The position numbers and the translations under genes were made by a program. 64,000 nt of DNA from Orobanche coerulescens (taxonomy: Eukaryota; Streptophyta; Magnoliopsida; Lamiales; Orobanchaceae), in contig JAWKAU010000044.1 of NCBI GenBank assembly GCA_033398695.1, positions 310,001 through 374,000 on the forward strand. The letters are read 5' to 3'. How positions within the stretch are numbered: the first letter of the stretch is position 1; each line of letters starts with the position of its first letter. Positions 32,467 through 60,022 of this stretch are shown piece by piece. A model generated the notes under the pieces. That model had not been told where the DNA came from. It was given only the letters and a program-made list of their open reading frames with translations, and ran no database searches.

Positions 32467-34634
32467 TGTAACACCCCCGATATATTCAGGAATATTACAG
32501 CACCGCAAATCCTTTACATAAGGATTTACAAGGCTGAAGAATTGAACAGACATTAAAAGGTACTAACGAATGGAAATAACGGAATTAAGATACAACAGCT
32601 TCGACCAAATCTTGAAAAATACAATTGTTCAACAGAAACTTAATAATACATCACCAAATTCAAATTCATCATAAATGACTTCGTACTCGAGTACTTATTG
32701 AAATAACCAATAAACAACAGACAAATGAACCCGGCCGAAACATCACTCTGCACCCTCGTCGTCATGCAGCTCCAGTGGTTGTTTTCCCGCTCTCCTGGAT
32801 CCTGAACATAAACAAAATGTTCACCCCCGAAGGAGTTAGCACAACGATGCTAGTACAAGTACCACAACATATTATTCATATCTCACGAAGAATAATAACG
32901 TAAACGACAAAAATACCAACGAGTCTTCTCCTACGAGAAACTCATAAATGAAATACACAACTGATAATCACAACATGATATCATAACATACACATGGTAA
33001 TTCCGCCGATCCAGCGCTCACTTCCTAGAACCCACGATGATCCCGTCAGACCAACCCGTGGTGGAAAAACCCATCCGATGATCCAGCGCACGCTAGCATA
33101 GATCCCCCGATGATCCCGTCGGACCAACACGAGGTGGACATACAACAACGACATACATGCATGACAATATGTATAACATCAATACGTAAAACAAATAAGG
33201 TACTTGCCTCGATTCGAAGCCAAGAACAATACTTCCACGAAAACGAACACTCGAAGGTCGTCCCCCTCAATCAATCACGTAACAAGCTCAAACCTTAACA
33301 AAAGAAATAATATAGGATTTATCTCACATCGTACGAATGTCTAACAATTCGATTTACGGCCAAAAGCTCATAAAATGTAATCTGCCTGAACTTCTTAGCG
33401 CACGCTAAGTACTCTGTGTAGCGTGCGTTAAGTCTGCTCGATAGCGCACGCAAACAACAAAGCATAGCGTACGCTAACTATGCATGGTCAGTACTTCACT
33501 GATCAGCTGACTGACTCGTCTGATGGCCTAGTGTACGTTATGTACCAAATGTAGCGTACGTTAACCGATGCTCGATAGCGCACGTTAATTTACATAGCTT
33601 AGCGTGCGCTAACTGTGCATGGCGGTTCACTACTGGGCAGAAGACTGTTCTCATCATGATCAAAACAATGAAATCTTCCGTGATAATTCATGTTACCTAC
33701 ATGAATATCATGTTCATACGATTATGAATGATCTTACGGATAACAACTTTGGATTCAAGAATATGTATACTATTATAAAACTATATTCCATTTTGACTAC
33801 AAATCTTCATACGACAATTCGAAAGGCTTAACGGTTGATATCGATACCTTATATCAATCAAAATTATCATACTGTAGTTGTTTAACATTCCATCTATACT
33901 AGATAAATCCTTTCATGATCAATCCCTTAGATTCATCTAACAATAATGATGTTAAAGTCAAGTCCATGATTGCTATGAAGTCATATACTAGATTTAGATT
34001 ACCAATGATAGAAGCTTCCTCTACTTGTTCAATGTAATAAGATTCGAATCATGATGTTCATAATCAAGGTACTTAAGGCCTATTCATCTCAATATTCCAA
34101 ACATGATGTACTTTGGATAATTTATCCACAAAGATCAATATTTGCAAACATGATCATCTTATTCTCCATAACACGAATCTAGAGTTTGAAGATAGAATCA
34201 ACATACCTTAATATGACGAAATCACTGAACCACAAGGTAGAATCCGACTCCGTTTGGTTATGTGCCACTCCAAGGTGTTACTTCTCTTCAATGATCACTC
34301 ACAAGTGATAACCAATATACAAGGATCAATATGATGTGTTCTAAGTGTGTTAGAAGGATTAATATAGCTCTCTGGCCTCTCAAGAATGAAGAATGGACGA
34401 AGGAAATGTAAGCCAAAACGGGTTGTTGTCTCATTTATAATATTCTGCACTTTAGCTAATTAGCGCACACTAGCATATAATACTTAGCGCACGCTAATAA
34501 GCGTTGACTCCAAATCTGTCCAGGTTCATCCGCGGGAATCTTATCCGGACCCATGTCCCGGCTGGCGCATGTGCTAGCCGCCTACCTCAATAATTCAGTG
34601 TCTAGCGCACACAATTTCTACATACGTAGCGTGC
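32467..34634 (-). repeat. Element A 5' LTR, segment 1
   Basis: It starts TGTAACACCCCC and pairs with 11136 onward. It contains arrays at 33396-33611 (4+4) and from 34461, and a minus TATA at 34430-34439. It is interrupted by F after TAGC-GTGC at 34627-34634. Confidence 0.9.
33396..33611 (-). repeat. 12-mer array in A 5' LTR, downstream of TATA (4+4)
   Basis: Starts at 33396, 33419, 33442 and 33465, then 33529, 33552, 33576 and 33600: steps of 23-24 bp and a 64-bp gap, identical to the 3' LTR. Confidence 0.9.
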
Positions 34635-35327
34635 TGTCACGCCCCACCTTAAGGCAGCAGGCATCTACCAGCATCCGGCCGAAGCCTGCCGGACGGGCGC
34701 GCAGCAGGCTCGCGCACGTACATGGACCCGGCCAAGCTCACAGAGGACTACCCCCCTATAATAGGCTTAGACGGAAAAAGCCTTGTGACAGCAGTAGACA
34801 TTGAAAAGCCGACGAACCCACTATTCAGAAAGAAGACCCTAGAAGCTTCAAGATGGAGACCAATCAATTCCAGAAGGTCAAAGAGGGTTCCAGAAGGTCA
34901 GAAATCGGGTCGGATTGCTACGGGCCGAATCGGGCCTTGGCCGGGCCGGGCCGGGACACTTCGGGCCGGGTCGGGCCGGACGTTCCAGAGGGGTCTGGGG
35001 ACTCCAAGAAGACTTCTTAGAATTACCTAGAATTGTATAGATCTTTCTAGATGATGGCATTCTTGTAAATACTTGGAATAGTAATGTTTTGTTGGTAATT
35101 TGTTAGCCTAGGAGGATTAGTATAAATACCCCCTTGGGGCTCATTTGTAACACACCTTGAAAAATCTGATTTGCTACAGTGCAATAAGAGAAAACCTTCC
35201 CCAAGCATTTTCCTTACTTTCCTTCCTAGCAGTCTTGTTTATTAGTAGGCTTACTACTTAGGCTTGAGACAACCTAAGAGTGCCGCACGGCGAGGACTTA
35301 GCGAGGCGCAAGTATAACCCCGTGACA
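34635..35327 (+). repeat. Element F 5' LTR (693 bp)
   Basis: TGTCACGCCCC to ACCCCGTGACA. It contains the block shared with C LTRs (34751-34809), TTCNNGAA-type pairs (34842, 34868, 34888), a decamer-periodic GGGCC tract (about 34920-34980) and TATAAATACC at 35121-35130. Confidence 0.93.
35121..35130 (+). promoter_or_regulatory. TATA box of F 5' LTR
   Basis: TATAAATACC followed by GGCTCATTTG. The same arrangement, GTATAAATA then GGCTCATTTG, occurs on the minus strand in the C LTRs. The copy in the F 3' LTR is at 40397-40406. Confidence 0.75.
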
Positions 35328-35341
35328 GTTGGTATCGGAGA
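35328..35341 (+). promoter_or_regulatory. Primer binding site of F
   Basis: GTTGGTATCGGAGA begins directly after the LTR and matches initiator tRNA-Met with one change. The start codon is 62 bp further on. Confidence 0.8.
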
Positions 35342-35403
35342 CAAGGTTGAGACAACCAAGGTGAATTTTTCAAAGATTGCTAGTTGATCGTGCAAGGAGT
35401 AAG

Positions 35404-38400
35404 ATGGCACAATCATCCGACGTCACCCAACCCAACACTCAGGCCGAGAAGACCAAGAAGGGCAGAGACAAGTCTGTCGACCGGATTGCTGCCATGGACA
35501 GCCGAGTGACTCGACTGGAGGAGGTCTACGATGAGGTTGCGAAGAGGGTGGATGACTTAGAAGAAGCTGGTGAGGAGCTGCACAACCAGGTTCTTTCTAC
35601 TATCAATGCTTGTGATGGGGACATGAAGCAAGAGTTGGCCGATTTTCGGGCCATGATCTTGGCCATGCAAGAGGGCATGGAATTTCTCAAGACGGAGATG
35701 GCAACAGTGAAGAGGGCGATTGCCAACGGAGAACATGTGGGTGCGACACCCGCACGGATTGAAATCCCAAGGCCTGGGAAGTTCAACGGATCGAGAAACG
35801 CCAAGGAGATTGACAATTTCTTATGGAACCTGGAGCAGTACTTTGGTGCCTCAAACATTCGAGATGATGACACCAAGTTGCGGACTGCGCCGTTGTACTT
35901 AGCCGACACGGCCGTACTGTGGTGGCGGACCAAGCAGGCCGACATTGAGAGTGGTGCGTGCAGGATGGCTTCCTGGGAAGACTTCAAGGCCGAATTGAAG
36001 GGGCAATTCTATCCCGAGAATGTGGAGTTCGAGGCTCGGGGCAGGCTGAAGAGACTCAGCCACACTCGTACTATCAAAGACTATGTCAAGGAGTTCCAAG
36101 AAATTGTGCTGGAGATACCAAGCTTGACGGCGACCGACAAGCTGTTTGCATTTATGGACGGACTCAAGCCTTTCGCAAGGCAAGAGTTGGAAAGGCGCAA
36201 TGTTCAGGACGTGGCGACTGCCATTGCCGTGGCCGAGGGCTTAAGGGAGTTGAAAACCAGCGATAAGCCAAGGACTTTCCGCACAGATAAGGGCAAAGGT
36301 GGGGGAGACCGCCCATCAAGGTTCAGGCCAAACAAATACTCGGGCAAGCAACCAGTGGACGAGAACGATAAGCCGAGAGGTTGTCACATTTTTCATAGTA
36401 CCTCTCACCTGAAGTACGACTGCCCATTTCGGAGGAAGAAGGTCGCAGCCATTCAAGAGACCACGGAGACTGAGGATGCGGATGGTGCGCACATGGGCTC
36501 ATTGAGTTTGCTCAATGCTGTCAAAGCCGTTGTGGAACCGGCGAAGGGACCCAGGAAGGGGTCTATGTTTGTGGATGCCTTGATCGGAGGCACACACATC
36601 AAAGCCTTAGTGGATACAGGAGCTACGCACAACTTCATGCGGGACGGCGTAGCCAAAGCCTTACGACTTACCGTCACTCCAACTAATGGATCGATCAAGA
36701 CAGTGAACACCCATGCTAAACCGGTGACCGGCGAAGCACGAGGAGTGAAAGCAAAGATAGGTGACTGGCATGGAATGATCACCTTCATTGTAGTGACCAT
36801 GGATGACTATGATTTGGTTCTTGGGTTACAATGGTTCGATCAGGTACGGGATTGCATTCTTCCGTTTTCTAATTCCTTAGTCATTTTGGACTCCGACAGG
36901 ACACAGGCCATTCCGGCCAAGAGGGAAGCGAAGGGGACAAGCACCCTTTCAGCCATGCAACTTAGTCGAGGACTTCGGAAGCAGGAAGAGACCTTCGCTG
37001 CATTTTACGTTCCTGATGATGGAAATGATATTGAAGGCAAGGATGTACCAAAGGAAGTTCAAGCCGTTTTGGAGGAGTTCCAGGACGTAATGCCCGCGGA
37101 ACTACCTAAGAAGCTGCCACCCAGACGGGATGTGGACCACAAAATTGAACTTATTTCCGATGCGAAGCCACCTTCGAGGACACCCTATAGGATGTCACCA
37201 CCGGAACTTAAGGAGCTGCAGAAGCAATTGAAAGAGTTGTTGGATTCCAAGATGATCCAACCATCCAAATCTCCTTATGGATCCCCCGTTTTGTTCCAAA
37301 AGAAGCATGATGGATCCTTACGTATGTGCGTGGACTATAGGGCACTCAACAAACTGACGGTTCGCAACAAGTATCCCATTCCACTCATTGGAGAGTTGTT
37401 TGACCAACTGGGAGGTGCCAATTACTTTTCAAAGATCGACCTAAGATCCGGATATTGGCAGGTCCGGATAGCCGAAGGAGACGAACCCAAGACCGCTATG
37501 GCGACCAGGTATGGTTTGTTTGATTTCCTTGTGATGCCGTTCGGGCTTACAAACGCCCCAGCGACCTTTTGCACACTGATGAACAAGGTATTTCAACCAT
37601 ACATAGACAAGTTTATTGTCGTTTATTTGGATGATATTGTCATTTACTCATCATCGATGGAGGAGCATGTAGAACACTTGAGACAGGTGTTCCAGGCATT
37701 GCGGGACAATGAACTTTATGCAAAGTTGGAGAAGTGCTCATTCGCCCAACAGGAAGTGACTTTTCTGGGGCACCGTATCAAAGATGGCCGCATAATGATG
37801 GATGAGGCCAAAGTGAAAGCCGTTCGAGATTGGGAACAACCGACCAGCGTAACCCAACTCCGATCATTTCTGGGACTCGTGAACTACTACCGGAAGTTCA
37901 TCGAGGGATACTCTCGGATAGCAGCACCATTAACGGACCTATTGAAGAAGGACCATAAATGGGAGTGGACGGATAAGTGCCGAGAGGCCTTTGAGCGACT
38001 CAAAGGCAAAGTGACGAAGCAGCCAGTTCTTGCCTTGCCAGACCATGCCAAGGCCTATGAGGTTCAGACCGATGCATCTGATTATGCCATCGGAGGAGTA
38101 TTGATGCAGCTAGGGCATCCCGTCGCCTATGAGAGCAGAAAATTGAATGACACCGAGAGACGGTACTCGGTACACGAGAAGGAAATGACCGTCGTGGTTC
38201 ATTGCCTTAGAGCCTGGAGGCATTATTTACTTGGAAGCAAGTTTGTGGTACGAACAGACAACGTAGCCACAAGTTATTTTCAAACTCAGAAGAAGCTCAC
38301 GCCAAAACAAGCAAGATGGCAGGAATTCCTAGCCGAGTTCGATTATACCCTGGAGTACAAGCCTGGAGTACTTAACCGAGTAGCCGATGCATTAAGCCGG

Positions 38401-38934
38401 AAGGCCGAGCTTGCAGCCTTGACTAAGGCCGAGGGAAGCATCAAGGACCGCATACGCGAGGGACTGAGGCAGGACCCTTTCGCAGAGAACATCATGCAAC
38501 TTGCCAGGAGCGGCAAGACAAGACGGTTCTGGGAACGAGACGAGCTACTCTTTACCAAAGGCAATCGTTTGTACGTGCCCAAATGGGGGAACTTACGGAG
38601 GGACATCATGAAGGAATTCCACGATACACTATGGGCTGGACACCCAGGTATGCACCGTACAATGGCTTTAATTGACAATTCTTACTTTTGGCCCAGGATG
38701 CGTGAGGACGTTGAGGCATACGTCCGGACATGTCTTGTGTGCCAACAAGACAAGGGGGAACAACAACAACCTGGTGGACTACTTCAACCCTTGCCCATAC
38801 CGGAACACCCTTTTGAAAGTGTTTCAATGGACTTTATTTCAGCTTTGCCTAAATCGGATGGGTACGGGTCGATCATAGTTGTGGTGGACAGGTTCTCAAA
38901 ATACGCAACCTTTATTCCAAAGACCGCGACGTAA
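35404..38934 (+). CDS. Element F gag-pol polyprotein, N-terminal 1176 codons
   Basis: I chose ATG 35404 (MAQSSDV); the frame upstream has only a non-ATG start. Order: coiled-coil N-terminus (about residues 20-110), gag core ([52 protein letters not shown]), then a CCHC knuckle whose second Cys is Phe (TTT at 36391-36393). Protease: [39 protein letters not shown] and YLDD intact. RNase [13 protein letters not shown] and RVADALSRK. The integrase zinc domain is HPGMHRT to CLVCQQ and the first Asp is in [10 protein letters not shown]. It stops TAA at 38932-38934 because of a small indel just upstream; integrase continues in another frame. Confidence 0.9.
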
Positions 38935-39910
38935 CGGCTCTGGAGACGGCCAAGTTGTTCTTAAAGCATGTGGTAAAACATTGGGGCATTCCAAGGACAA
39001 TCGTGAGTGACCGAGACCCACGTTTCACAGGAAAGTTTTGGTCGGGACTTTTCAAGCTATTGGGCTCGAATTTAGCATTCTCAACAAGTTTCCACCCACA
39101 GACGGACGGGCAGACAGAACGAGTTAACGCACTGCTTGAGTGCTACTTGCGGCACTATGTGAGTGCCAATCAGCGGGACTGGGCCAAACTCTTAGACACA
39201 GCCCAATTCTCATACAACTTGCAGAAGAGTGAATCAACAGGACGCAGCCCATTCGAGCTTGCCACTGGGAGACAACCGGCGACAACGAATAACATTGCCA
39301 CCGGATACTCGGGATAGAGTCCGGCAGCATATACCTTTGCTAAGTCATTACAGGAGGAATCGGACTTGGCTCGAGCATCTTTGGACAAGGCAGCCAAGAA
39401 GATGAACAAATGGGCCGATCTCAAGCGACGAGCGGTCGAGTTCAACGAAGGCGACTTAGTTATGGTGAAACTTCTCCCGCAGCAATTTAAAGCATTTCGG
39501 GCTGTGCATAAGGGACTCATCCGAAGATACGAGGGACCCTACAAGATCGAGCGGCGTGTTGGGACAGTTTCATATCGAGTGGAACTTCCGCCGAAGATGA
39601 AGATACACCCGGTCTTCCATGTTAGCCAACTGAAGCCTTACCATCAGGACATGGAGGATCCGGGCCGAGCTCAGTCACATCGAGCACTGACTGCCGTGAT
39701 TACTTCCTTCGACAAGGAAGTAGCCGAGATCATTTCACATCGGGACAGGGGCGTGGCCCCATACACCGAGTTCTTTGTGCATTGGAAGGGACTCCCAGAC
39801 GCTGAAAATAGCTGGGAACATGAGGATCACCTATGGCAATTCCAGCGGAAGATTGAAGAATATCGGGACAGCATCGTGCCGAGGACGGTCACGACTTTGG
39901 TGGGGGAGAA
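38935..39910 (+). pseudogene. Element F integrase C-terminal half and chromodomain
   Basis: This frame joins the first part by a one-base shift at about 38920-38935. It has VSDRDPRFTGKFW (second Asp), FHPQTDGQTERVNALLE (Glu) and FELATGRQP, then TAG at 39315-39317, after which the frame continues. MVKLLPQQFKAFRAVHKGL, YEGPYKIERRVG and HPVFHVSQLKPY follow, then a chromodomain with the aromatic positions present (YTEFFVHWKGLPDAENSW, EHEDHLWQF). The frame does not stop before the LTR; it runs on to 40316. Confidence 0.85.
39899..39910 (+). promoter_or_regulatory. Polypurine tract of F
   Basis: GGTGGGGGAGAA precedes TGTCACG. The core GGGGGAGAA plus TGTCAC is identical in C1 on the minus strand. 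Confidence 0.8.
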
Positions 39911-40603
39911 TGTCACGCCCCACCTTAAGGCAGCAGGCATCTACCAGCATCCGGCCGAAGCCTGCCGGAGGGGCGCGCAGCAGGCTCGCGCGCGTACATG
40001 GACCCGGCCAAGCTCACAGAGGACTACCCCCCCTATAATAGGCTTAGACGGAAAAAGCCTTGTGACAGCAGTAGACATTGAAAAGCCGAGGAACCCACTA
40101 TTCAGAAAGAAGACCCTAGAAGCTTCAAGATGGAGACCAATCAATTCCAGAAGGTCAAAGAGGGTTCCAGAAGGTCAGAAATCGGGTCGGATTGCTACGG
40201 GCCGAATCGGGCCTTGGCCGGGCCGGGCCGGGACACTTCGGGCCGGGTCGGGCCGACGCTCTGCAGGGGTCTGGGGACTCCAAGAAGACTTCTTAGAATT
40301 ACATAGAATTGTATAGATCTTTCTAGATGATGGCATTCTTGTAAATACTTGGAATAGTAATGTTTTGTTGGTAATTTGTTAGCCTAGGAGGATTAGTATA
40401 AATACCCCCTTGGGGCTCATTTGTAACACACCTTGAAAAATCTGATTTGCTACAGTGCAATAAGAGAAAACCTTCCCCAAGCATTTTCCTTACTTTCCTT
40501 CCTAGCAGTCTTGTTTATTAGTAGGCTTACTACTTAGGCTTGAGACAACCTAAGAGTGCCGCACGGCGAGGACTTAGCGAGGCGCAAGTATAACCCCGTG
40601 ACA
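39911..40603 (+). repeat. Element F 3' LTR (693 bp)
   Basis: It pairs with 34635-35327. Visible differences are a few substitutions, one C-run indel and a short cluster near 40250. The shared block is at 40027-40086. Confidence 0.93.
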
Positions 40604-40813
40604 GTGCGCTAGTAATAGCCGATAGCGCGCGTTAAGCTACATTCTTAGCGTGCGCTATCACGAGTTTGTATGAGAAAATTTTGCATGTTGTTATACTTAA
40701 GTACAAGGATGCCAATGCAAGAAATATCATACTCCAATAATCAAAACCACAAATCCGAATAATACAGGGATTGAATACAGATGAAATACACCGTAATAAA
40801 TCCGGATATTACA
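40604..40813 (-). repeat. Element A 5' LTR, segment 2
   Basis: It resumes with the duplicated GTGC and GCTA, carries motifs at 40623 and 40646, and ends GGATATTACA at 40813, followed by AGCAG. Confidence 0.9.
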
Positions 40814-41869: not shown

Positions 41870-41881
41870 GCTCTGATACCA
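41870..41881 (-). promoter_or_regulatory. Primer binding site of Copia-3 (tRNA-Met)
   Basis: The minus strand reads TGGTATCAGAGC, a full match to the usual initiator tRNA-Met site, one base inside the LTR end. Confidence 0.8.
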
Positions 41882-41895: not shown

Positions 41896-42148
41896 TGTAA
41901 TACCCGGTTGTAATTCAGTAATTATCATTCAGTATTTATCATTCAGTAATTTTCACTCGCTAATGATCATTTGTCACTCATATTCAATCATGGTACTCAT
42001 CATTCAGAGTAATTGTATCGTGTATCAATCGTCGTTCATCACTAATCTAATTGGAGTTTCGTGTCGTGTTTATCATCATTGTCATTTTCATTGTGGGCTG
42101 TGCGTGAGGAGTAGCGCACGCTACGTACTCTTTCTAGCACGCGCTAAT
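41896..42148 (+). repeat. D1 5' LTR, segment 1
   Basis: TGTAATACCCGG start, closely similar to 42149-42400. It contains motifs at 42112 and 42135, the second overlapped by the CTAAT duplication (42144-42148). Confidence 0.9.
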
Positions 42149-42377
42149 TGTAATACCCGGTTGTACTTCAGTTATTATCATTCAGTATTTATCATTCAGT
42201 AGTTGTTACTCAGTAATTTCACTCATTAATGATCATTTGTCACTCATATTCAAACATTGTATTCATCATTCAGAGTAATTGTATCGTGTATCAATCGTCA
42301 TTCATCACTAATCTAATTGGAGTTTCGTGCCGTGTTTATCATCATTGTCATTTTCGTTGTGGGTTGTGTGTGAGGAG

Positions 42378-42927
42378 TAGCACACGCTACGTACTCTTTT
42401 TAGCGCGCGCTAATTGAGTACAGGTAGCGCACGCTACCACTCAGCATTAGCGCACGCTAATGTTGCCGCAGCCAAAGGGTACCGGACCGCAGTGAGCAGG
42501 CAGCGCACGCTACGAGTGGTAAGTAGCGCGCGCTAGTGGGTTGTAGTAGCGCACACTAATATGTAGTGTAGCGCGCGCTAAGGACGGATCAGGTTAAGTC
42601 CAGTGGCTACTGGACTGTACTGGATTAATTCATAGCGCACGCTATGAGTAGTTTTAGCGTACGCAAGCGGTGTAGTAGCGCACGCTACTTGTTGGTCGTA
42701 GCGCACGCTACTGAGGTCAGAGCAGAGATGCATAGCTACGGATTCCGATCGGGCATCAAATAATTCGTTAGCGTATGCTAACCATGGGTATTAACGCACG
42801 CTAATGGTATGGTTGTAGCGAACGCTACAAAAGGTACGTAGCGCACGTTACCGTGTTCGGACAGTGGGTACTGGACTACCCAAAACACCCGTTAGCGCAC
42901 GCTAAGAACTGGGGCTAGCGCGCGCTA
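42378..42927 (+). repeat. 12-mer array in D2 5' LTR (4+4+4+4+2)
   Basis: Starts: 42378, 42401, 42425, 42448 | 42501, 42524, 42547, 42569 | 42633, 42655, 42676, 42699 | 42769, 42792, 42816, 42839 | 42893, 42916. Steps are 21-24 bp inside groups, with gaps of 53, 64, 70 and 54 bp. Cores are mostly GCAC or GCGC. TATAAATAGG at 42940 is the next 24-bp step. Confidence 0.93.
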
Positions 42928-45821: not shown

Positions 45822-46179
45822 TACTGGTGCACCGCATTCATTCATTTTCGAATCATGTTTGAATAGACTTAATTTGGATAGTCCTATTGCTGGTGGACCT
45901 CATACCAACGGTCTACCTGGTGATGGAAGAATTTTCAGAAATCATACCGAATTAAGTTTAAATGACTGCGATTGGTTGATGGACCAAATCGTGGTGGATT
46001 TACTTTAGGACGATGTATATCGGATATTAGTGGAATGGATCGTCATGATACCCCTCAATGTTCGTAAGCGTATGGTCACTATCATTTCCGTCGTTGGGGT
46101 CGAATGTGTGCTTCAGGGAGGTGATCCCCGTTGTTCCGAAGGAATTATTAATATGATGGAAGCAGAGTAACTCCTCAAT
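45822..46179 (+). pseudogene. D2 protease remnant
   Basis: Directly after the gag stop, in another frame, FDTGAPHSFIFESCLNRL keeps the catalytic DTG at about 45820-45830. HTNGLPGDGRIF and later pieces follow, with stops near 46008 and 46168. No LILGDDWL-type strand is preserved in frame. Confidence 0.7.
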
Positions 46180-46447
46180 CGAGTTGTTCGATCATTCATC
46201 GTATCATTTTCATCGATTGGCCATTCTAAGGCAATTGAGTTGTTCAATCATTCATCGTATCATTTTCATCGATTGGCCGTTCTAAGGCAATCGAGTTGTT
46301 CAATCATTCATCGTATCATTTTCATCGATTGGCCGTCCTAAGGCAATCGAGCTGTTCAATCATTCATTGTATCATTTTCATCGATTGACCATTCTAGGGC
46401 AATCGAAATGTTCAATCATTTGTGGTATCATTGGCATCGATTGACGA
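46180..46447 (+). repeat. 56-bp tandem repeat, about 4.8 copies, between D2 protease and RT
   Basis: Units start at 46180, 46236, 46292, 46348 and 46404. Each contains GTTCAATCATTCAT and CATCGATTG and is 56 bp long with a few substitutions, more in the last two. 56 is not a multiple of 3, so the array destroys the frame between protease and RT. It is not present at the matching place in A or G. Confidence 0.92.
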
Positions 46448-47165
46448 TGTATTCCCAGACGAGTTACCTGGTTGCCTTCACAAGGAGTTGTGGAATTCAC
46501 GAGTGAGTTGGAGCCCGGTACGTCCCCGTTATCGAAGGCACCATACCGGATGGCCCCGACCGAAATGCAGGAGTTGATGATTCAACTTGTGGAATTGTTC
46601 GAGAAAGGTTATCTCCGACCGAGTGCGTCCCCGTGGGGAGCACCAATGTTGATTGTCAAAAAGAAGGATGGTTCATTTCGCTTGTGTATTGAGTATCGGG
46701 AGTAGAACAGGATGGCGATCTAGAATAAGTGTCCTCTACCCCGTATTGATGATCTCTTAGATCAACTTCAGGGAGCTTCAATATTTTCCAAGATCGACTT
46801 AAGATCTGGATATCATCAGTTGCGAGTTCGAGAGTCGGATGTCGCGAGGACGGCGTTTCAAACACGCTATGGCCATTATGAGTTCGTGGAGTTAATTAAT
46901 GCACTAATGCACCTGCGGTATTTATGGAGCTAATGAATCGGGTCTTTATCGACTTTTTGGATCAGTTCGTGGTTGTCCTTATTGATGACATTTTAATTTA
47001 TTCTCATGACTGGGAGGAGCACGAGCTTCACCTTCATCAGGTTCTCGACATGTGAGACGAGAGCAGCTTTATGGAAAGTTTTCCATATGTGAGTTCTGGA
47101 TGTCCGCAATGACGTTTCTCGGACATGTAATTTCATGAGACGGAGTTCGTGTCGACCCTCAAAAG
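46448..47165 (+). pseudogene. D2 reverse transcriptase, degraded
   Basis: It includes DVFPDELPG, then [27 protein letters not shown] and [19 protein letters not shown] in frame to 46705. A stop replaces the codon after EYRE, and another occurs near 46720. [28 protein letters not shown] and RYGHYEFV follow. GLTNAPAVF is damaged by a deletion near 46890-46915. The catalytic LIDDILIYS is present near 46977-47003. A shift and stop lie near 47050. Confidence 0.8.
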
Positions 47166-49352: not shown

Positions 49353-49589
49353 TGTAATACCCGGTTGTACTTCAGTTATTATCATTCAGTATTTATCATT
49401 CAGTAGTTGTTACTCAGTAATTTCACTCATTAATGATCATTTGTCATTCATATTCAAACATTGTATTCATCATTCAGAGTAATTGTATCGTGTATCAATC
49501 GTCATTCATCACTAATCTAATTGGAGTTTCGTGCCGTGTTTATCATCATTGTCATTTTCGTTGTGGGCTGTGTGTGAGGAGTAGCGCAC
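49353..49589 (+). repeat. D2 3' LTR, segment 1
   Basis: It pairs with 42149-42385. It ends at TAGC-GCAC (49582-49589), where C1 inserts in the first motif of the array. Confidence 0.92.
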
Positions 49590-50724
49590 TGTCACGGGGT
49601 TGGGTTTTGAGCACTCGAAAGCTCTTCGGACCCGTGCGGCACTAGACTAGAATTGCCTCGATCTATCTAGTAAGCCTAACTCACTCGGTTGCAAAGTGTG
49701 TAAGAAGTGGTTTAACACTTGGGAGTTGAGAGTAAAGCACTTCACTATTTCACAATCACTTTACAAGTACACAAGAATGTTGAGTCTTTGAGGGTTGGGT
49801 TGCAAATGAGCCACTCCTCATCTATTTATACTACTCCTAAGAACCTAGAACCTTCTACTCCACCTCCTCATTTGGAGGGTTCTAGACCTATCTACATCAT
49901 ACCAATTCTAGAACCTAATTCTAGAATCATCCACACTTATCTACATACAAGACTTACAAGTCTAGAGTATTCTACAAGTACAAGACTAAGTACAATCTAG
50001 AATACTCCACAACCTTCAAGTGCTACATCCTTCTAGGAGGCTCCTAGAAGGTTCTTCCATCATCCTGGGCGCCCGGCCCGTCTCTGTCCGTCCCGGCCCG
50101 CATCGGCCCGTCCCGGCCCGCACCGGCCCGTCTCGGCCCGACCATCTGGGCCTGTCTCTACAATGTTCCAGACTCTTCCCGAACCTCCTGGACCAAGCCG
50201 GTCTGCTTCTAGCTGCTTCCGGTCGAGTCTTCCCTGCTGAGTGACTCCTCAGCTTTTCAATGTCTACTGCCCCCACAAGGCTTTTTCCGTCTAAGCCTAT
50301 TATAGGGGGGAGGGTCTCTCTCGCACCTCGCGCGCGCGCGCCCGCGCACGCCGGCCGCGCCCGGCATCCCACGCCCGCGTCCGGCCGCCCATCTCGAGTC
50401 CTGTTCCCAGACTCGGCCTTGTCCCGTCGTGCCTTGTCCCACACGACCCCTGCTCGTCTGGCCTTGCCCGCGCCCCCTGTGCTGCCGGACAGTCCCGGAC
50501 ATGTCCCGTCCGCAATGCCCCTTGGGCGATCCGCTTCCCACAGCGGCGTCCGTGCTCCTCCCACGGCTTACTCGCGTGATTCTCCGTCCGATCACGCCGT
50601 CCTGAAGGCTGACTCGTCACATGCAGCCCGATGCCATCCATGGCGTCCTGCTCGGGCCGGTCCCTCGGCACCCTGTGCGACCGTCTGCGCACACATGGCT
50701 CGTTGTCGACTGTCGGCCGTGACA
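49590..50724 (-). repeat. C1 3' LTR (1135 bp)
   Basis: For the minus strand this is the 3' LTR. Minus TATAAATAGA at 49821-49830. TTCTAGAA twice (49906-49913, 49919-49926). Near-perfect 23-bp palindrome (50029-50051). Seven 10-bp CGGCCCGNNN units (50074-50143). Block shared with F at 50252-50310. The gag-protease frame remains open into it down to 50300. Confidence 0.93.
49821..49830 (-). promoter_or_regulatory. TATA box in C1 3' LTR
   Basis: Minus-strand TATAAATAGA followed by GGCTCATTTG, as in F. Copies are at 52834-52843, 54416-54425 and 57390-57399. Confidence 0.7.
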
Positions 50725-52522
50725 TTCTCCCCCGCCCATTTCGTCGACGTCCTCGGCGACGTGGCGTCCCCTCAATGAACCGAACATCTCCAAGGTGGTA
50801 ACTCGACTTCTCCTCAAGCTTCCTCACGTACTTGAGTGCCGACATAGCTTGTCTCGAAGGCTCTGTGGTCAAGTGTATTTCCTGCAACTTGGCTTGATCA
50901 CATACGTACAGCGCCCTCTTATGCGGAACAACGCCAACATTATTCTTCCTCAGGAAGTCCATGCCCAGTATTATGTCCCGATCATCCATGCTCGTCACCT
51001 TGAAGTGCACGCGCGGTTCCCACGTGCCAATCTTCAGTCGCACCCCATTGGCGACCCCTGTGACTCGAACGGGTGGTGCATTATTCGACTTCATCCAGCC
51101 CCGTCCCTCGATGACCTGAAGCCCCAACCTCTGTGCTTCAGCCTCGTCAATGTAGTTGTAATCGGCCCCTGTGTCGACTAACGCCTTGACGGGTTTCCCA
51201 TTGATCAGCCCCGTCGCATACAACAAGTTTCCCTCAAGCGGTGCTCCGTCCCGCGATGCCATCCCTATGGCTGAGTTCAAAACCTGAAGCGCCATCGATG
51301 TCCCATCACCCTCGGCATCGTCCCGTGCCTTGGTGTACTCCATGGCGGCTACCCTCGGAAACTTCGAGCATTGCCTCGTCGAATGCTCCGTGCTCCAGCA
51401 AATCGCACATTTCTTTTTCTTCGGACACGCTGCTACGAGATGGTCTGCATTCCCGCACCCATGGCAAGTCCGAGTCCACCCTGACTGCTTGCCGTCCTTG
51501 GGCCTGGCCATCCTCGCGCCCCTATCCGCACCCTGGTACGACTTATCCTGCGTACCGATGCCGTCCTCGTCCCTCCTGGACTTCTGGCTCTCCCCGGCTG
51601 GTTTCAACTCGATCAGCCGTTCCGCTATTGCAATTGCCTCGGACACGTTCTGTGCCTTGGCCCTCTGCACTTCCAACTTTGCCCACGGTTTTAGCCCATC
51701 CACGAACGCGAACAAAGCTTCCTGCTCACTAAGGCTAGGCAACTCCAGCACGATCTCCTGGAACTCCTTCACATAGTTCTTGATCGTCTTGCTGTGCGTT
51801 AACTCCTTCAACCTAGCCCGGACCTCAAACTCAACATTCTCCAGGTAAAACTGCCGCTTGAACTCGGCCTTGAAATCCTCCCATGTCTCCATCCGACATG
51901 TACCATGCGCGATCTCTGTTTCGCCCCTTCTCCACCATAGCAACGCCACATCTGCTAAGAAGAATGGAGTCGTCTGCAACTTGGTCGCATCATCTGCTAT
52001 CCCCGATGCACCAAAGTAACGCTCCATGTTCCACAGGAAGTCATCCACTTCCCTACCATTCCTCGATCCTTGGAACGAACACGGCCGGAGGATGTCGATT
52101 CGATGGGGTGTCGCACCCCGCTGGTCCCTGCCGTGGGCCATCGCCCGCTCGTACAGTGCTGTCCTTCCTTCGATGGTCTCGATCCTCCCTATGATCTCCT
52201 CTCGAAAGGCTGCGATCATCGACCGAACCTCCTTCCTGACAGCCTCAATGATCTCCTCACACAAGTCGCGTCGCAACGCGTTAAGGGTGCCCGTCACCCG
52301 ATTCTCAAGCTCCTCCAACGACTTGCTCATCTCTGTCACCTGATCGGCCACGTTGCTCCATGCCTCAAGAGCATTCTCGTGCTTGCCCATGGTTTCCTCC
52401 AGCCGAGCCACTCGTGCTTCCATGGCAACACCTCTTTCCACGGACTTGTCCCTAGACCCTTTCTTGGACTTGTCCTTATCCTGGCCGGGTTGAACTTTGG
52501 TGACGCTAGACGTAGTCTCCAT
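50300..52522 (-). CDS. C1 gag-protease protein, open frame reading into the LTR
   Basis: Minus-strand ATG at 52522 (METTSS); an upstream in-frame start lies in the 5' LTR and is unlikely. About 740 codons without a break. The N-terminus is basic with a coiled coil (about residues 30-120). Gag core: VDDFLWNMERYFGAS, ALLWWRRGE, FKAEFKRQFYLENVEFEVR and [17 protein letters not shown], all close to F. Two CCHC knuckles: CHGCGNADHLVAAC and CAICWSTEHSTRQC. Retropepsin: ALVDTGADYNYI and DIILGMDFLRKN, complete. The polypurine tract is at about 50725-50737. The frame continues about 140 codons into the LTR as an Arg-rich tail, ending at 50300. A working structural protein and protease are plausible. 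Confidence 0.85.
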   Translation of the reverse strand: METTSSVTKVQPGQDKDKSKKGSRDKSVERGVAMEARVARLEETMGKHENALEAWSNVADQVTEMSKSLEELENRVTGTLNALRRDLCEEIIEAVRKEVRSMIAAFREEIIGRIETIEGRTALYERAMAHGRDQRGATPHRIDILRPCSFQGSRNGREVDDFLWNMERYFGASGIADDATKLQTTPFFLADVALLWWRRGETEIAHGTCRMETWEDFKAEFKRQFYLENVEFEVRARLKELTHSKTIKNYVKEFQEIVLELPSLSEQEALFAFVDGLKPWAKLEVQRAKAQNVSEAIAIAERLIELKPAGESQKSRRDEDGIGTQDKSYQGADRGARMARPKDGKQSGWTRTCHGCGNADHLVAACPKKKKCAICWSTEHSTRQCSKFPRVAAMEYTKARDDAEGDGTSMALQVLNSAIGMASRDGAPLEGNLLYATGLINGKPVKALVDTGADYNYIDEAEAQRLGLQVIEGRGWMKSNNAPPVRVTGVANGVRLKIGTWEPRVHFKVTSMDDRDIILGMDFLRKNNVGVVPHKRALYVCDQAKLQEIHLTTEPSRQAMSALKYVRKLEEKSSYHLGDVRFIEGTPRRRGRRRNGRGRMSRPTVDNEPCVRRRSHRVPRDRPEQDAMDGIGLHVTSQPSGRRDRTENHASKPWEEHGRRCGKRIAQGALRTGHVRDCPAAQGARARPDEQGSCGTRHDGTRPSLGTGLEMGGRTRAWDAGRGRRARARAREVRERPSPL

Positions 52523-52589
52523 CGGACCTCCTTGCACAATACCTCTCAACAACGTCTCAATGCGGAAGCTCCTTGAACCACAAGCGTGG

Positions 52590-52601
52590 CTCTGATACCA
52601 C
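52590..52601 (-). promoter_or_regulatory. Primer binding site of C1 (tRNA-Met)
   Basis: The minus strand reads TGGTATCAGAGC near the LTR end. The C2 equivalent at 57152-57163 has TGGTATCGGAGC. Confidence 0.8.
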
Positions 52602-52602
52602 T

Positions 52603-53738
52603 TGTCACGGGGTTGGGTTTTGAGCACTCGAAAGCTCTTCGGACCCGTGCGGCACTAGACTAGAATTGCCTCGATCTAGCTAGTAAGCCTAACTCACTCG
52701 GTTGCAAAGTGTGTAAGAAGGGGTTTAACACTTGGGAGTTGAGAGTAAAACACTTCACTATTTCACAATCACTTTACAAGTACACAAGAATGTTGAGTCT
52801 TTGAGGGTTGGGTTGCAAATGAGCCACTCCTCATCTATTTATACTACTCCTAAGAACCTAGAACCTTCTACTCCACCTCCTCATTTGGAGGGTTCTAGAC
52901 CTATCTACATCATACCAATTCTAGAACCTAACTCTAGAATCATCCACATTTATCTACATACAAGACTTACAAGTCTAGAGTATTCTACAAGTACAAGACT
53001 AAGTACAATCTAGAATACTCCACAACCTTCAAGTGCTACATCCTTCTAGGAGGCTCCTAGAAGGTTCTTCCATCATCCCGGGCGCCCGGCCCGTCTCTGT
53101 CCGTCCCGGCCAGCATTGGCCCGTCCCGGCCCGCACCGGCCCGTCTCGGTCCGACCATCTGGGCCCGTATCTACAATGTTCCAGACTCTTCCCGAACCTC
53201 CAGGACCAAGCTGGTCTGCTTCTAGCTGCTTCCGGTCGAGTCTTCCCTGCTGAGTGACTCCTCAACTTTTCAATGTCTACTGCCCCCACAAGGCTTTTTC
53301 CGTCTAAGCCTATTATAGGGGGGGAGGGTCTCTCTCACACCTCGCGCGCGCGCGCCCGCGCACGCCGGCCGCGCCCGGCATCCCACGCCCGCGTCCGGCC
53401 GCCTAGCTCGATTCCTGTTCCCAGACTCGGCCTTGTCCCGTCGTGCCTTGTCCCACACGACCCCTGCTCGTCCGACCTTGCCCGCGCCCCCTGCGCTGCC
53501 GGACAGTCCCGGACATGTCCCGTCCGCAATGCCCCTTGGGCGATCCGCTTCCCACAGCGGCGTCCGTGCTCCTCCCACGGCTTACTCGTGTGATTCTCCG
53601 TCCGATCACGCCGTCCTGAAGGCTGACTCGTCACATGCAGCCCGATGCCATCCATGGCGTCCTGCTCGGGCCGGTCCCTCGGCACCCTGTGCGACCGTCT
53701 GCGCAAACATGGCTCGTTGTCGACTGTCGGCCGTGACA
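52603..53738 (-). repeat. C1 5' LTR (1136 bp)
   Basis: It pairs with 49590-50724 at about 98 percent by eye. TATA 52834-52843, palindrome 53042-53064, decamer array from 53097, shared block 53266-53324. Confidence 0.92.
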
Positions 53739-54190
53739 GCACGCTACGTACTCTTTTTAGCGCGCGCTAATTGAGTACAGGTAGCGCACGCTACCACTCA
53801 GCATTAGTGCACGCTAATGTTGCCACACTGTGATCCGGTGGAGTCTTGGGTGCAGTGAGCTATAAGTGGCGCACGCTACGAGTGGTAAGTAGCGCGCGAG
53901 TGGGTTGTCGTTGCGCACGCTAATCTGTGGTGTAGCGCGCTAAGGACGGATCGAGGTTGAGTCCGGTGGCTCTTTGGTGCCTTTGGATTAATTCATAGCG
54001 CACGCAATGAGTAGTTTTAGCGTACGCAAGCGGTGTAGTAGCGCACGCTACTTGTTGGTCGTAGCGCACGCTACCGAGGTCAGAGCAGAGGACAGAAAGT
54101 TTCTGGATTCCAGTACTGGGCATCAAATAATTCGTTAGCGCACGCTAACCATGGGTATTAACGCACGCTAATGGTATGGTTGTAGCGCAC
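53739..54190 (+). repeat. D2 3' LTR, segment 2 (array interior)
   Basis: It resumes with duplicated GCAC and GCTA and carries array blocks 1 to 4 up to TAGC-GCAC at 54183-54190, where C2 inserts. Several spacers differ from the 5' LTR at CAG/CTG sites. Confidence 0.92.
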
Positions 54191-55320
54191 TGTCACGGGG
54201 TTGGGTTTGAGCACTCGAAAGCTCCTCGGACCCGTGCGGCACTAGACTAGAATTGCCTCGATCTAGCTAGTAAGCCTAACTCACTCGGTTGCTAAGTATG
54301 AAAGAAGGGGTTTAACACTTGGGAGTTGAGAGTAAAACTTCACTATTTCACAATCACTTTACAATACAAGAATGTTGAGTCTTTGAGGGTTGGGTTGCAA
54401 ATGAGCCACTCCTCATCTATTTATACTACTCCTAAGAACCTAGAACCTTCTACTCCACCTCCTCATTTGGAGGGTTCTAGACCTATCTACATCATACCAA
54501 TTCTAGAACCTAACTCTAGAATCATCCACACTTATCTACATACAAGACTTACAAGTCTAGAGTATTCTACAAGTAAAAGACTAAGTACAATATAGAATAC
54601 TCCACAACCTTCAAGTGCTACATCCTTCTAGGAGGCTCCTAGAAGGTTCTTCCATCATCCTGGGCGCCCGGCCCGTCTCTGTCCGTCTCGGCCCGCATCG
54701 GCCCGTCCCGGCCCGCACCGGACCGTCTCGGCCCGACCATCTGGGCCCGTCTCTACAATGTTCCAGACTCTTCCTGAACCTCCTGGACCAAGCCGGTCTG
54801 CTTCTAGCTGCTTCCGGTCGAGTCTTCCATGCTGAGTGACTCCTCAGCTTTTCAATGTCTACTGCCCCCACAAGGCTTTTTCCGTCTAAGCCTATTATAG
54901 GGGGGGAGGGTCTCTCTCGCACCTCGCGCGCGTGCGCCCGCGCACGCCGGCCGCGCCCGGCATCCCACGCCCGCGTCCGGCCGCCCAGCTCGAGTCCTGT
55001 TCCCAGACTCGGCCTTGTCCCGTCGTGCCTTGTCCCACACGACCCCTGCTCGTCCGGCCTTGGCCGCGCCCCCTGCGCTGCCGGACAGTCCCGAACATGT
55101 CCAGTCCGGAATGCCCCTTGGGCGATCCGCTTCCCACAGCGGCGTCCGTGCTCCTCCCACGGCTTACTCGCGTGATTCTCCGTCCGATCACGCCGTCCTA
55201 AAGGCTGACTATTCACATGCAGCCCGATGCCATCCATGGCGTCCTGCTCGTGCCGGTCCCTCGGCACCCTGTGCGACCGTCTGCGCACACATGTCTCGTC
55301 GTCGACTGTCGGCCGTGACA
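54191..55320 (-). repeat. C2 3' LTR (1130 bp)
   Basis: Same plan as C1: TATA 54416-54425, TTCTAGAA pair, palindrome near 54626, decamer array and shared block near 54850-54906. The minus frame from protease remains open through it to 54611. Confidence 0.92.
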
Positions 55321-57084
55321 TTCTCCCCCACCCATTTTGTCGACGTCCTCGTCGATGTGGCGGCCCCTCGATGAACCGAACTGCTCCAAGGTGGTAAGAC
55401 GGCTCCTCCTCAAGCTTCCTCACGTACTTGAGTGTCGTCATAGCTCGTCCCGAAGGCTCTGTGGTCAAGTGCATTACCTGCGGCTTATCTTGATCACACA
55501 CGTACATCGCCCTCTGATGCGGAACAACTCCAACAATATTCTTCCTCAGGAAGTCCATGCACATTATTATGTCCCAATCATCCATGCTCGTCACCTTGAA
55601 GTGCACGCGTGGTTCCCACGTGCCAATCTTTAGTCGCACCCCATTGGCGACCCCTGTAACTCGAATGGGTGGTGCATTATTCGACTTCATCCAGCCCCGT
55701 CCCTCGATGACCTGAAGCCCCAACCTCTGTGCTTCAGCCTCGTCAATGTAGTTGTAATCGGCCCCTGTGTCGACTAACGCCTTGATGGGTTTCCCATTGA
55801 TCAGCCCCGTCGCATACAACAGATTTCCCTCAAGCGGTGCTCCGTCCCGCGATGCCATCCCTATGGCTGAGTTCAACACCTGAAGCGCCATCAATGTCCC
55901 ATCACCCTCGGCATCGTCCCGTGCCTTGGTGTACTCCATGGCGGCTACCCTCGGAAACTTCGAGCATTGCCTCGTCGAATGCTCCGTGCTCCAGCAAATC
56001 TCATATTTCTTTTTCTTCGGACACGCTGCTACGAGATGGTCTGCACTCCCGCACCCATGGCAAGTCCGAGCCCACCCTGACTGCTTGCCGCTTGGGCCTA
56101 GCCATCCTCGCGCCCCTATCCGCACCCTGGTACGACTTGTCCTGCGTACCGATGTCGTCCTTGTCCCTCCTGGACTTCCGGCTCTCCCCGGCTGGTTTCA
56201 ACTCGATCAGCCGTTCTGCTATCGCAATCGCCTCGGACACGTTCTGTGCCTTGGCCCTCTGCACTTCCAACTTTGCCCACGGTTTTAGTCCATCCACGAA
56301 TGCAAACAAAGCTTCCTGCTCACTAAGGCTAGGCAACTCCAGCACGATCTCCTAGAACTCCTTCACTTAGTCCTTGATCGCCTTGCTGTGGGTCAACTCC
56401 TTCAACCTAGCCCGGACCTCAAACTCAACATTCTCCGGGTAAAACTGCCGTTTGAACTCGGCCTTGAAATCCTCCCATGTCTCCATCCGACATGTACCAT
56501 AGCAGCGCCACATCTGCTAAGAAGAATGGAGCCGTCTGCAACTTGGTCGCATCATATGCTATCCCCGATGCACCAAAGTAACGCTCCATGTTCCACAGGA
56601 AGTCGTCCACTTCCCTACCATTCCGCGATCCTTGGAACGAACACGGTCGGGGGATGTCGATTCGATGGGGTGCCGCACCCCGCTGGTCCCTGCCGTGGGC
56701 CATCGCCCGCTCGTACAGTGCTGTCCTTCCTTCGATGGTCTCGATCCTCCCGATGATATCCTCTTGAAAGGCTGCGATCGTCGCCCAGACCTCCTTCCTG
56801 ACAGCCTCAAGGATCTCTTCACACAAGTCGCGTCGCAACGCGTTAAGGGTGCCCGTCACCCGGTTCTCAAGCTCCTCCAACGACTCGCTCATCTCCGTCA
56901 CCTGATCGGCCACTCTGCTCCATGCCTCGAGAGCATCCTCGTGTCTGCCCATGGTTTCCTCCAGCCGAGCCACTCGTGCTTCCATGGCAACACCTCTTTC
57001 CACGGACTTGTCCCTAGACCCTTTCCTGGACTTGTCCTTCTCCTGGCCGGGTTGAACTTTGGTGACGCTGGACGTAGTCTCCAT
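55321..57084 (-). pseudogene. C2 gag-protease, broken
   Basis: ATG 57084 on the minus strand, same start as C1. Three lesions relative to C1: a 32-bp deletion near 56500, between CCAT repeats, just after ALLW; CAG to TAG at 56352-56354 in EFQEI; and a 2-bp deletion near 56091 before the knuckles. The second zinc knuckle has Tyr for its first Cys (YEICWSTEH). The protease segment DTGADYNYI and the strand before the LTR are intact. No complete product is possible. Confidence 0.88.
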
Positions 57085-57164
57085 CGGTCCTCCTTGCACA
57101 AAACATCTCAGCAACGTCTCAATGCGGAAGCTCCTTGAACCACTAGCGTGGCTCCGATACCACT

Positions 57165-58288
57165 TGTCACGGGGTTGGGTTTGAGCACTCGAAAGCTCCT
57201 CAGACCCGTGCGGCACTAGACTAGAATTGCCTCGATCTAGCTAGTAAGCCTAACTCACTCGGTTGCTAAGTATGAAAGAAGGGGTTTAACACTTGGGAGT
57301 TGAGAGTAAAACTTCACTATTTCGCAATCACTTTACAATACAAGAATGTTGAGTCTTTGAGGGTTGGGTTGCAAATGAGCCACTCCTCATCTATTTATAC
57401 TACTCCTAAGAACCTAGAACCTTCTACTCCACCTCCTCATTTGGAGGGTTCTAGACCTATCTACATCATACCAATTCTAGAACCTAACTCTAGAATCATC
57501 CACACTTATCTACATACAAGACTTACAAGTCTAGAGTATTCTACAAGTACAAGACTAAGTACAATCTAGAATACTCCACAACCTTCAAGTGCTACATCCT
57601 TCTAGGAGGCTCCTAGAAGGTTCTTCCATTATCCCGGGCGCCCGGCCCATCTCTGTCCGTCCCGGCCCGCATCGGCCCATCCCGGCCCGCACCGGCCCGT
57701 CTCGGCCCGACCATCTGGGCCCGTCTCTACAATGTTCCAGACTCTTCCCGAACCTCCTGGACCAAGCCGGTCTGTTTCTAGCTACTTCCGGTCGAGTCTT
57801 CCCTGCTGAGTGACTCCTTAGCTTTTCAATGTCTACTGCCCCCACAAGGCTTTTTCCGTCTAAGCCTATTATAGGGGGGAGGGTCTCTCTCGCACCTCGC
57901 GCGCCTTCCAAGCGCCGGCCGCGCCCGGCATCCCACGCCCGCGTCCGGCCGCCCAGCTCGAGTCCTGTTCCCAGACTCGGCCTTGTCCCGTCGTGCCTTG
58001 TCCCACACGACCCCTGCTCGTCCGGCCTTGCCCGCGCCCCCTGCGCTGCCGGACAGTCCCAAACATGTCCAGTCCGGAATGCCCCTTGGGCGATACGCTT
58101 CCCACAGCGGCGTCCGTGCTCCTCCCACGGCTTACTCGCGTGATTCTCCGTCCGATCACGCCGTCCTGAAGGCTGACTATTCACATGCAGCCCGATGCCA
58201 TCCATGGCGTCCTGCTCGTGCCGGTCCCTCGGCACCCTGTGCGACCGTCTGCGCACACATGTCTCGTCGTTGACTGTCGGCCGTGACA
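57165..58288 (-). repeat. C2 5' LTR (1124 bp)
   Basis: It pairs with 54191-55320. TATA 57390-57399. A 10-bp difference lies near 57900-57912, where a GCGCGCGC run in other copies is replaced. Ends CGTGACA. Confidence 0.92.
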
Positions 58289-60022
58289 GCACGCTACAAA
58301 AGGTACGTAGCGCACGTTACCGTGTTCGGACAGTGGGTACTGGACTACCCAAAACACCCGTTAGCGCACGCTAAGAACTGGGGCTAGCGCGCACTAAACT
58401 AGGATTGCTATAAATAGGACAGTTCAGCCCTTACTCCGTCATTTATCATTTCTCTTCGTTTCTTCGGCGGTTTCGGGCGATTCCGGGCGTTTTGGAGAGT
58501 GTTCTTTGAGGAGTAATCATCAGTCATCATCTTCAAGCATATCTTTTGGATTAATCATCATTTCAACATCCTCATCACATCAAATCTAAGGTATTAATCT
58601 CTTGGATCTAGAATTTCGGATTTTTGGGTTTTTCCTTTCGATTTCTTCGTGTAAGCTTGGATTGTTATTGGAATATGTTAGATATGGATTATCTACCTTG
58701 GATAAATATATTCCTACGGATTTAATGGCTATTTTGGGGATTTATTTCAAGAACCCTTGGGGTTAACTTCGGTTAATTTGGGGATTTCCGATTGTCGTTG
58801 TTGTAATCTTGAATTGTGGATTCCTATGGGATTATTGATATCATTGAAAGTGCTTTGATGGTTTGAAATACTCATCTTGGAGTTGGTTTCGATATATTTG
58901 AGTTCGAATATTGTTGTATCGACGTTTGAGTCGATTATGATCGTTTTGATTTGCGTAATGATCGGATTATTGGTAATTATGTTATTCAAGGTTGTTCGAG
59001 CGACCGACATTTCATTTAGGACGTTGTTCGTGGACGGACATTCTTCATCGGTGTTGAGTAAGTTAATTCTTACTCAGTTAAAAGGATATTCATTCCTTTC
59101 GTTGTTGTTCATGCATAATCATAATTCATTCATAAAGTACTAACCGTATTGAAACTTGTAATTGTCACTTAATTACTTCATTCACGAGGAACGACGGTTG
59201 CAATCATTTCATTGAGCTGTCATTCATTTCACCATCATTTAATCTTGGTGAGTCATTATTCATTTTCGTTGTCACTTTTGTCATATTGTGGCATTCTGGG
59301 TCATACGGTCGTGCCGGTTGGTATGTGTAGGATTTTCATGTCGGGCACATTATAGTCGTATGTTGGTTGGTGGCCTCACATTGGACTGTGCACACGAGTT
59401 GATGGCTTCGTGATACTGATTAGGTACAAGACCACACGTGTATTCGATCGATACTCGTTGGTGGCTTGTGCACGGACACATTTCCATCCCGGACGTAGTG
59501 TGGCGCCATTCCTTTGAACCGTATCATTAGTTGATTCATATAGCATGTTTGATTGCGTATGTTTCGACAGGATATTTCATAACTATGGATAACTCATGAT
59601 TGTGTATTTTCAACTCTTGAGGATTGTTGTTTTATGTAACTGACCCCGTTGGGGAATTTTGTTTTCAGGTCATGGCAAGGCAAAAGCACGGGAATATAAT
59701 GTTGACGGCGAGGAGTCCCAGTGATACTAGTAGGGGGCCCCGATCTCTCAGTTATTCATGTTGTTGTCCTTTAATTTCCGCTGCAGACTTTCATTTGGAT
59801 ACTCCGTTTCATTCCGTGTTGTGTATTTTATCTTCATATAAAATATACTAGTATTCGGTATTGTCCTGGTGTGTTGTACTTAAACTCCTCATCGGAGTAT
59901 TTGGTAATATAATGTGGTTCGGTACTACAATTATATTATTTAATTCTTCATTTTCATTCGCCTGGTGGGTCCCAGTCGGGGACTCACGGCACTGTAATAT
60001 CCGCCTAGTTTGGGGTGTTACA
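58289..60022 (+). repeat. D2 3' LTR, segment 3
   Basis: It resumes GCAC-GCTA, with final array motifs to 58396 and TATAAATAGG at 58409-58418, then U5-like sequence nearly identical to 42970-44552. It ends GGTGTTACA followed by CTAAT. Confidence 0.92.

Follow-up and report, generated by a model that had tools for sequence, protein, structure and literature searches.

Introduction

In Drosophila, the target motifs of long terminal repeat (LTR) elements are palindromes that extend past the duplicated bases, a general feature of these elements, and sequence-specific integration is particular to the errantiviruses and their derivatives, according to the accessible text of two studies (PMC3276498, PMC5408687). 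For plants, the accessible text of a 12-genome survey reports a slight preference for palindromes (length 5.5 versus 5.4 at random), LTRs that are not commonly targeted, and 4-bp duplications that are commonest in Galadriel, Phygy and Bryco (PMC6911290). A single beet Galadriel element has a 5-bp duplication (PMC3605345). In the accessible parts of two further papers, the duplications of plant LTR elements are described as highly variable, except for Phygy with its motif NCGN (PMC6317226), and plant LTR retrotransposons are depicted as selecting their sites by chromatin and not by letters (PMC6317226, PMC12477314). Here we analyse a 64,000-nucleotide stretch of the Orobanche coerulescens genome (contig JAWKAU010000044.1, positions 310,001 to 374,000; hereafter the window), in which a Ty3 LTR retrotransposon with a chromodomain, F, and two copies of a short related element, C1 and C2, are each inserted in the middle of a 12-bp palindromic target within the LTRs of other retrotransposons. 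Insertions of F and C sit mostly in the middle of AGC-N4-GCT, chiefly inside TAGC-GYRC-GCTA, and the sequence evidence leads us to consider it likely, at a probability of about 0.7, that the integrase complex reads both arms of this target.

Short motifs in dense arrays are described for other transposable elements. In the accessible text of the respective papers, VANDAL21 carries dense arrays of a motif bound by VANC, in the same orientation and in non-coding parts (PMC5735166), and Sirevirus LTRs carry palindromic repeated motifs (PMC2829016).

Results

F, C1 and C2 are each bounded by TAGC and a 4-bp duplication on the left, and by the same 4 bp and GCTA on the right (Table 1). These flanks had been proposed in an initial annotation of the window, and every coordinate was confirmed in the sequence. 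The annotation had further reconstructed a 12-mer target for each element before insertion, and this agrees with the partner LTRs of the host elements, where the corresponding unfilled site is intact for F and differs by one base for C1 and for C2. It had also placed the targets in two different host LTR families, A and D, and not in one duplicated event; self-comparison found no similarity of at least 150 bp between the LTRs of the hosts A and D1. A single duplicated event was rejected for C1 and C2 as a pair, because they occupy two sites in one LTR and both partner sites are unfilled. The window contains 54 matches to TAGCN4GCTA, where 0.5 are expected; A, B, D1 and D2 carry them in their LTRs, and none was found inside F, C1 or C2 themselves. 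As the two host LTRs contain 6 and 13 such sites, the probability that all three insertions struck one exactly by chance is ~7e-8, and this figure together with the negative D-family control described below led us to reject chance or artefact.

The genome of the window (3.65 Gb, 1,279 contigs) was searched by pattern, and LTR ends with 18-bp flanks were collected without requiring the motif; internal hits and repeats were removed. Flank counts come from the first 100 of 864 C-family hits and the first 100 of 686 F-family hits, and all flank proportions below refer to the matches listed. Of the 43 distinct C flanks, 38 have AGC at positions -7 to -5, 30 have TAGC at -8 to -5 and 25 have TAGC followed by GYRC; the corresponding counts for the 34 distinct F flanks are 28, 22 and 20. 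The information content of the flanks is 1.5-1.7 bits at -7 to -5 and 0.35-0.73 inside the duplication. The D family, with 12-mer arrays in its own LTRs, served as a control (first 100 of 24,204 hits). AGC was found at -7 to -5 in 0 of 49 distinct outer D flanks, and at no offset did it occur more than once. The initial annotation would have been refuted had most copies elsewhere lacked TAGC-N4-GCTA at their flanks; the TAGC counts did not refute it. In element orientation F, C1 and C2 all read TAGC-GTGC. Both orientations are present genome-wide (GCAC in 8 and GTGC in 7 of the distinct F flanks with TAGC; GCAC in 11 and GTGC in 9 of the 33 listed C flanks with TAGC), so that an orientation rule was rejected and the agreement within the window is a coincidence.

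Far ends were then sought for 36 C and 26 F loci, with a match of 3 or 4 of 4 bases required between the two copies of the duplication. This yielded 21 C and 21 F pairs, and removal of one duplicate F pair left 20. AGC precedes and GCT follows the duplication in 17 of the 21 C pairs and in 14 of the 20 F pairs. Both arms of this six-base interrupted palindrome are thus present in 31 of 41 insertions, a ~1,300-fold excess over the frequency of AGC-N4-GCT in the genome. With most of their insertions sharing one target, F and C are sequence-specific LTR elements. A 14-base junction was separately scanned against IMG/VR (40 contigs).

The genome contains 2,065,551 copies of AGC-N4-GCT (reversed control, 952,901), of which the 12-mer makes up 63%. 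An insertion was scored as lying on a full 12-mer when either copy of the duplication was GYRC. By this measure, 10 of the 14 core-matching F pairs lie on full 12-mers, in line with the 63% given by abundance, and for F the arrays need exert no additional attraction. A strict requirement for the full 12-mer was rejected, because 5 of the 31 core-matching pairs lie on another AGC-N4-GCT and AGC is retained in 20 of 27 distinct flanks with a non-GYRC middle. Since F fits the 63% share and AGC persists without the GYRC middle, the unit common to F and C is likely the palindromic core AGC-N4-GCT, read by the integrase complex, and arrays would dominate the insertions because they hold most of the matching sites. 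The sequence-specific integration, mostly into 12-mers of other retrotransposons, that the initial annotation proposed is supported genome-wide, but the shared unit is shorter than the 12-mer. At four of the C sites that keep AGC without a GYRC middle (L080, L086, L088 and L091), the 500 bp inspected on one side contain no near-12-mer, although the flank of L086 resembles flanks of the array-bearing family.

The domains of F follow the Ty3 order: gag, protease, reverse transcriptase (RT), RNase H, the zinc and SH3-like parts of integrase, and a chromodomain (Pfam, two open reading frames (ORFs)). The chromodomain (PF00385, 43.7 bits, cut-off 25.1) forms the C-terminus of integrase, directly upstream of the polypurine tract, and with this domain order it identifies F as a Ty3 chromovirus. 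The integrase catalytic core gave no Pfam match in this copy of F, the frame of which is broken there; three-frame reading of the integrase region revealed a frameshift and stops. The best protein relatives of the integrase end (top 120 of 208) are plant proteins. F and C have the termini TGTCAC..GTGACA in common, and they share LTR stretches of 65-75 nt with 88-94% identity and a gag-region stretch with 65-69% identity. RT and integrase domains were not detected by Pfam in the three larger ORFs of C1 and C2, and for this reason we infer that C is mobilised in trans by an F-type integrase. The initial annotation had suggested integration by a chromodomain integrase; the lineage does bear a chromodomain, but we found no evidence that this domain reads the site.

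The 12-mer TAGCGYRCGCTA is present in 1,309,842 copies, or one every 2.8 kb of the genome, compared with 108 for the control read backwards. Nearly all of the first 100 sites (98) have another copy no more than 250 bp away. The commonest steps are 23 and 24 bp, and in most clusters the asymmetric centres point in the same direction. Within the window, the only carriers of the 12-mer are other retrotransposons, namely A, B, D1 and D2, which have it in their LTRs. A set of 129 mutually diverged contexts, drawn from the window and the fetched loci, shows the 12 bp conserved and the outer bases variable. Covariation outside the 12-mer was unconvincing in these contexts (p 0.04 at offset 1, 0.08 at offset 2 and >=0.10 at offsets 3-10), and a hairpin maintained by base pairing was rejected on this essentially negative test. 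The conserved unit is thus the 12-bp sequence itself, probably a protein site. Of 25 distinct left flanks of C, five of which came from a search that required TAGCGCAC, 17 have another near-12-mer within 500 bp; the mean is 3.5, versus 0.04 in shuffles. Flanks of C match the LTRs of A and D, as well as one or more other families with arrays. A GC-richer family with arrays, absent from the window, has been hit by C copies at several positions (loci L001, L007, L079, L083, L084, L090, L092, L094, L100 and L102-L104), and its ccgggaaggc-TAGCGCAC site is used by both F and C.

Self-comparison, termini and duplications show that the window consists of nested plant retrotransposons. G is nested within A, B in the second LTR of G, and F in the second listed LTR of A; D1 is nested in its relative D2, and the second LTR of D1 carries both C1 and C2. 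Self-comparison gives 69-72% similarity between the internal parts of A, B and D1. The other insertions (A, B, G and D2) had been annotated as using unrelated 5-bp targets; the termini show 5-bp duplications for A (AGCAG), B (GTCAT), G (CACTC) and D1 (CTAAT, 42144-42148 and 60023-60027). That of D1 overlaps the end of a 12-mer in the D2 LTR, a preference of which the listed D flanks elsewhere in the genome give no sign. The internal region of D1 contains a tandem repeat of 56-bp units at 46120-46455 (five overlapping 112-nt copies listed). ARAGORN called a tRNA-Pyl at 4865-4948, opposite a Ty1/copia integrase ORF, which is likely a false call.

Table 1 Target sites, elements and host LTRs in the window, and two-ended insertions elsewhere that lack an arm
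Feature	Position or locus	Strand	Sequence or remark	Evidence
F left target half	34627..34634	+	TAGC 34627-34630, duplicated GTGC 34631-34634	sequence
F right target half	40604..40611	+	duplicated GTGC 40604-40607, GCTA 40608-40611	sequence
C1 left target half	49582..49589	+	TAGC 49582-49585, duplicated GCAC 49586-49589	sequence
C1 right target half	53739..53746	+	duplicated GCAC 53739-53742, GCTA 53743-53746	sequence
C2 left target half	54183..54190	+	TAGC 54183-54186, duplicated GCAC 54187-54190	sequence
C2 right target half	58289..58296	+	duplicated GCAC 58289-58292, GCTA 58293-58296	sequence
Unfilled F site, partner LTR of A	13298..13309	+	TAGCGTGCGCTA, intact	self-comparison
Unfilled C1 site, partner LTR of D1	42378..42389	+	TAGCACACGCTA, one base changed	
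Unfilled C2 site, partner LTR of D1	42816..42827	+	TAGCGAACGCTA, one base changed	
F	34635..40603	+	Ty3 LTR retrotransposon with chromodomain	repeats, Pfam, three-frame reading of integrase region
F LTRs	34635-35329 and 39911-40603			
C1	49590..53738	-	short LTR retrotransposon related to F	gag and protease domains only, in ORF tested
C2	54191..58288	-	second C copy, 94.7% to C1	protease domain only, in two ORFs tested
Host LTR of A without F	11136..13511	-	6 TAGCN4GCTA sites; partner LTR 32467-40813 contains F	
Host LTR of D1 without C1 and C2	42149..44552	+	13 TAGCN4GCTA sites; partner LTR 49353-60022 contains both	
12-mer array in D1 LTR	42378..42927	+		neighbouring sites mostly 21-24 bp apart
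12-mer stretches	12064-13355, 20790-21061, 27903-28190, 33396-34496, 42112-42927, 53758-54147, 60038-60456			
C pair without both arms	L079		CGTG-GCGC-GCTA	
C pair without both arms	L080		GAGC-CACT/CACC-GCCG	
C pair without both arms	L093		TAGC-ATTA-TGTA, in array spacer	
C pair without both arms	L103		GTGC-GCGC-GCTA	
F pair without both arms	L118		GAGC-GGCT-GATC	
F pair without both arms	L120		GTGC-GTAA-GCCA	
F pair without both arms	L123		TAGC-GTGC-TCAA	
F pair without both arms	L124		TAGC-CATT-GCAT	
F pair without both arms	L126		TTAC-ATAA/GTAA-GCAC	
F pair without both arms	L130		GAGC-TTAT-GGTC	

Discussion

Our preferred explanation is that the site is read by the integrase itself. An F-type integrase complex would be two-fold symmetric, with its axis placed on the axis of the target; it would contact AGC on each side, join both LTR ends 4 bp apart, and insert C in trans. 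The duplication is centred on the dyad of the target, as expected from a symmetric integrase complex according to the accessible text of PMC3276498. The 12-mers, as 63% of AGC-N4-GCT, would absorb most insertions, and the arrays would act mainly as a huge sink.

Several points weigh against recognition of the core by integrase. The flank listings are confined to two contigs (contig labels C1 and C2). The far end was not recovered for 15 of the 36 C loci, the off-type sites L086, L088 and L091 included, nor for 5 of the 26 F loci. An arm is missing from four of the 21 C pairs and six of the 20 F pairs; L079 and L103 perhaps represent decayed 12-mers, each keeping one array-type arm, but decay is not evident at L118, L123, L126 and L130. 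The C copy L093 occupies an array spacer. Among core-matching C pairs, 16 of 17 lie on full 12-mers, above the 63% share (p 0.009), and C and F pooled use the full 12-mer ~3 times as often per site as other AGC-N4-GCT. The array itself, the outer T/A or the GYRC in the centre may thus add a modest preference of their own, mainly for C. Survival bias, considered below, also has to be counted here.

The high C share on 12-mers and the position of L093 would fit tethering, in which a host or element protein on the 12-mer arrays recruits the F/C complex and AGC-N4-GCT is a secondary local preference. The 12-mers do resemble protein sites in their conservation over 12 bp in diverged contexts, their 23-24-bp steps and their mostly uniform orientation, and the near-12-mers around C insertions point the same way. 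However, a protein bound to the 12-mer would mask the very centre that is cut, the F share is explained by abundance alone, and AGC is kept in most flanks with a non-GYRC middle. We regard tethering as unlikely.

A weak insertion bias might also be amplified if copies in arrays survive and some multiply with their host element, and the recurring flanks (ccgggaaggc-TAGCGCAC in several C loci) and the one LTR family common to many C flanks are consistent with this. Yet our counts are based on distinct flanks, C1 and C2 occupy two sites of one LTR with the partner empty at both, and the ccgggaaggc site is used by F and C alike. Survival can neither fix the break at one exact base nor yield AGC where the middle is not GYRC, which makes such an account very improbable. 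Recognition of a cruciform or hairpin rather than of letters, suggested by the palindromic form of the target, is extremely improbable, as the letters of the AGC arm are fixed, the middle is variable, and covariation beyond the 12-mer is unconvincing.

If the integrase sets the aim, as is likely, F and C would rely on an unusually sequence-specific inserter. Target reading by a plant integrase becomes testable, with hundreds of insertions providing a natural experiment. The purpose of the 12-mer arrays is a second question, which may be the larger one. We tentatively suggest, as a possibility short of an even chance, that the 12-mers are selected docking sites for an activator or a VANC-like anti-silencer, and that the chromovirus integrase evolved to match the middle of the site, parasitising the arrays as a renewable, host-safe landing field.

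Our literature search on the target specificity of plant LTR elements, with most subscription journals outside it, found none this specific, and a word look-up in the accessible text of a 2025 review (PMC12477314) gave no match for 'sequence-specific' or 'target sequence'. No description of the array was found either: of the papers listed for the 12-mer and parts of it, none dealt with plant transposons judging by title, and none turned up for a 12-bp/23-bp repeated LTR motif. The comparisons below draw on the accessible text of the sources. The 12-mer arrays resemble those of VANDAL21 and Sireviruses as short, dense motifs in non-coding parts of transposable elements, but differ in sequence and element type: one 12-mer is present in several LTR families, reaches 1.31 million copies and serves as an insertion target.

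As regards the insertions, the plant survey likewise contains nested insertions, 4-bp duplications in some families and a palindromic tendency (PMC6911290); the preference of F and C is strong, unlike the slight one reported there, and their targets in the window lie inside LTRs. We do not file F under the Galadriel clade. Phygy is also a plant element with a target motif, but this motif is shorter and the lineage is another (PMC6317226). Like the Drosophila errantiviruses (the gypsy, ZAM and Idefix groups, with TATA, CGCG and ATAT), F and C are Ty3-like, duplicate 4 bp on insertion and have a palindromic target that is sequence-specific. Errantivirus motifs centre on the duplicated 4 bp, reach at most 3 bp beyond it and have high information inside the duplication, whereas the strongest bases of F and C, AGC and GCT, lie outside it, and the element is a chromovirus in a plant host. 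F, which bears a chromodomain and whose best listed relatives at the integrase end are plant proteins, is not filed as an errantivirus, an animal lineage with a gypsy-related pol; it is errantivirus-like in target choice only. The behaviour is thus known in kind, but it is stronger and lies at other bases here, in a lineage for which our searches found no description of it.

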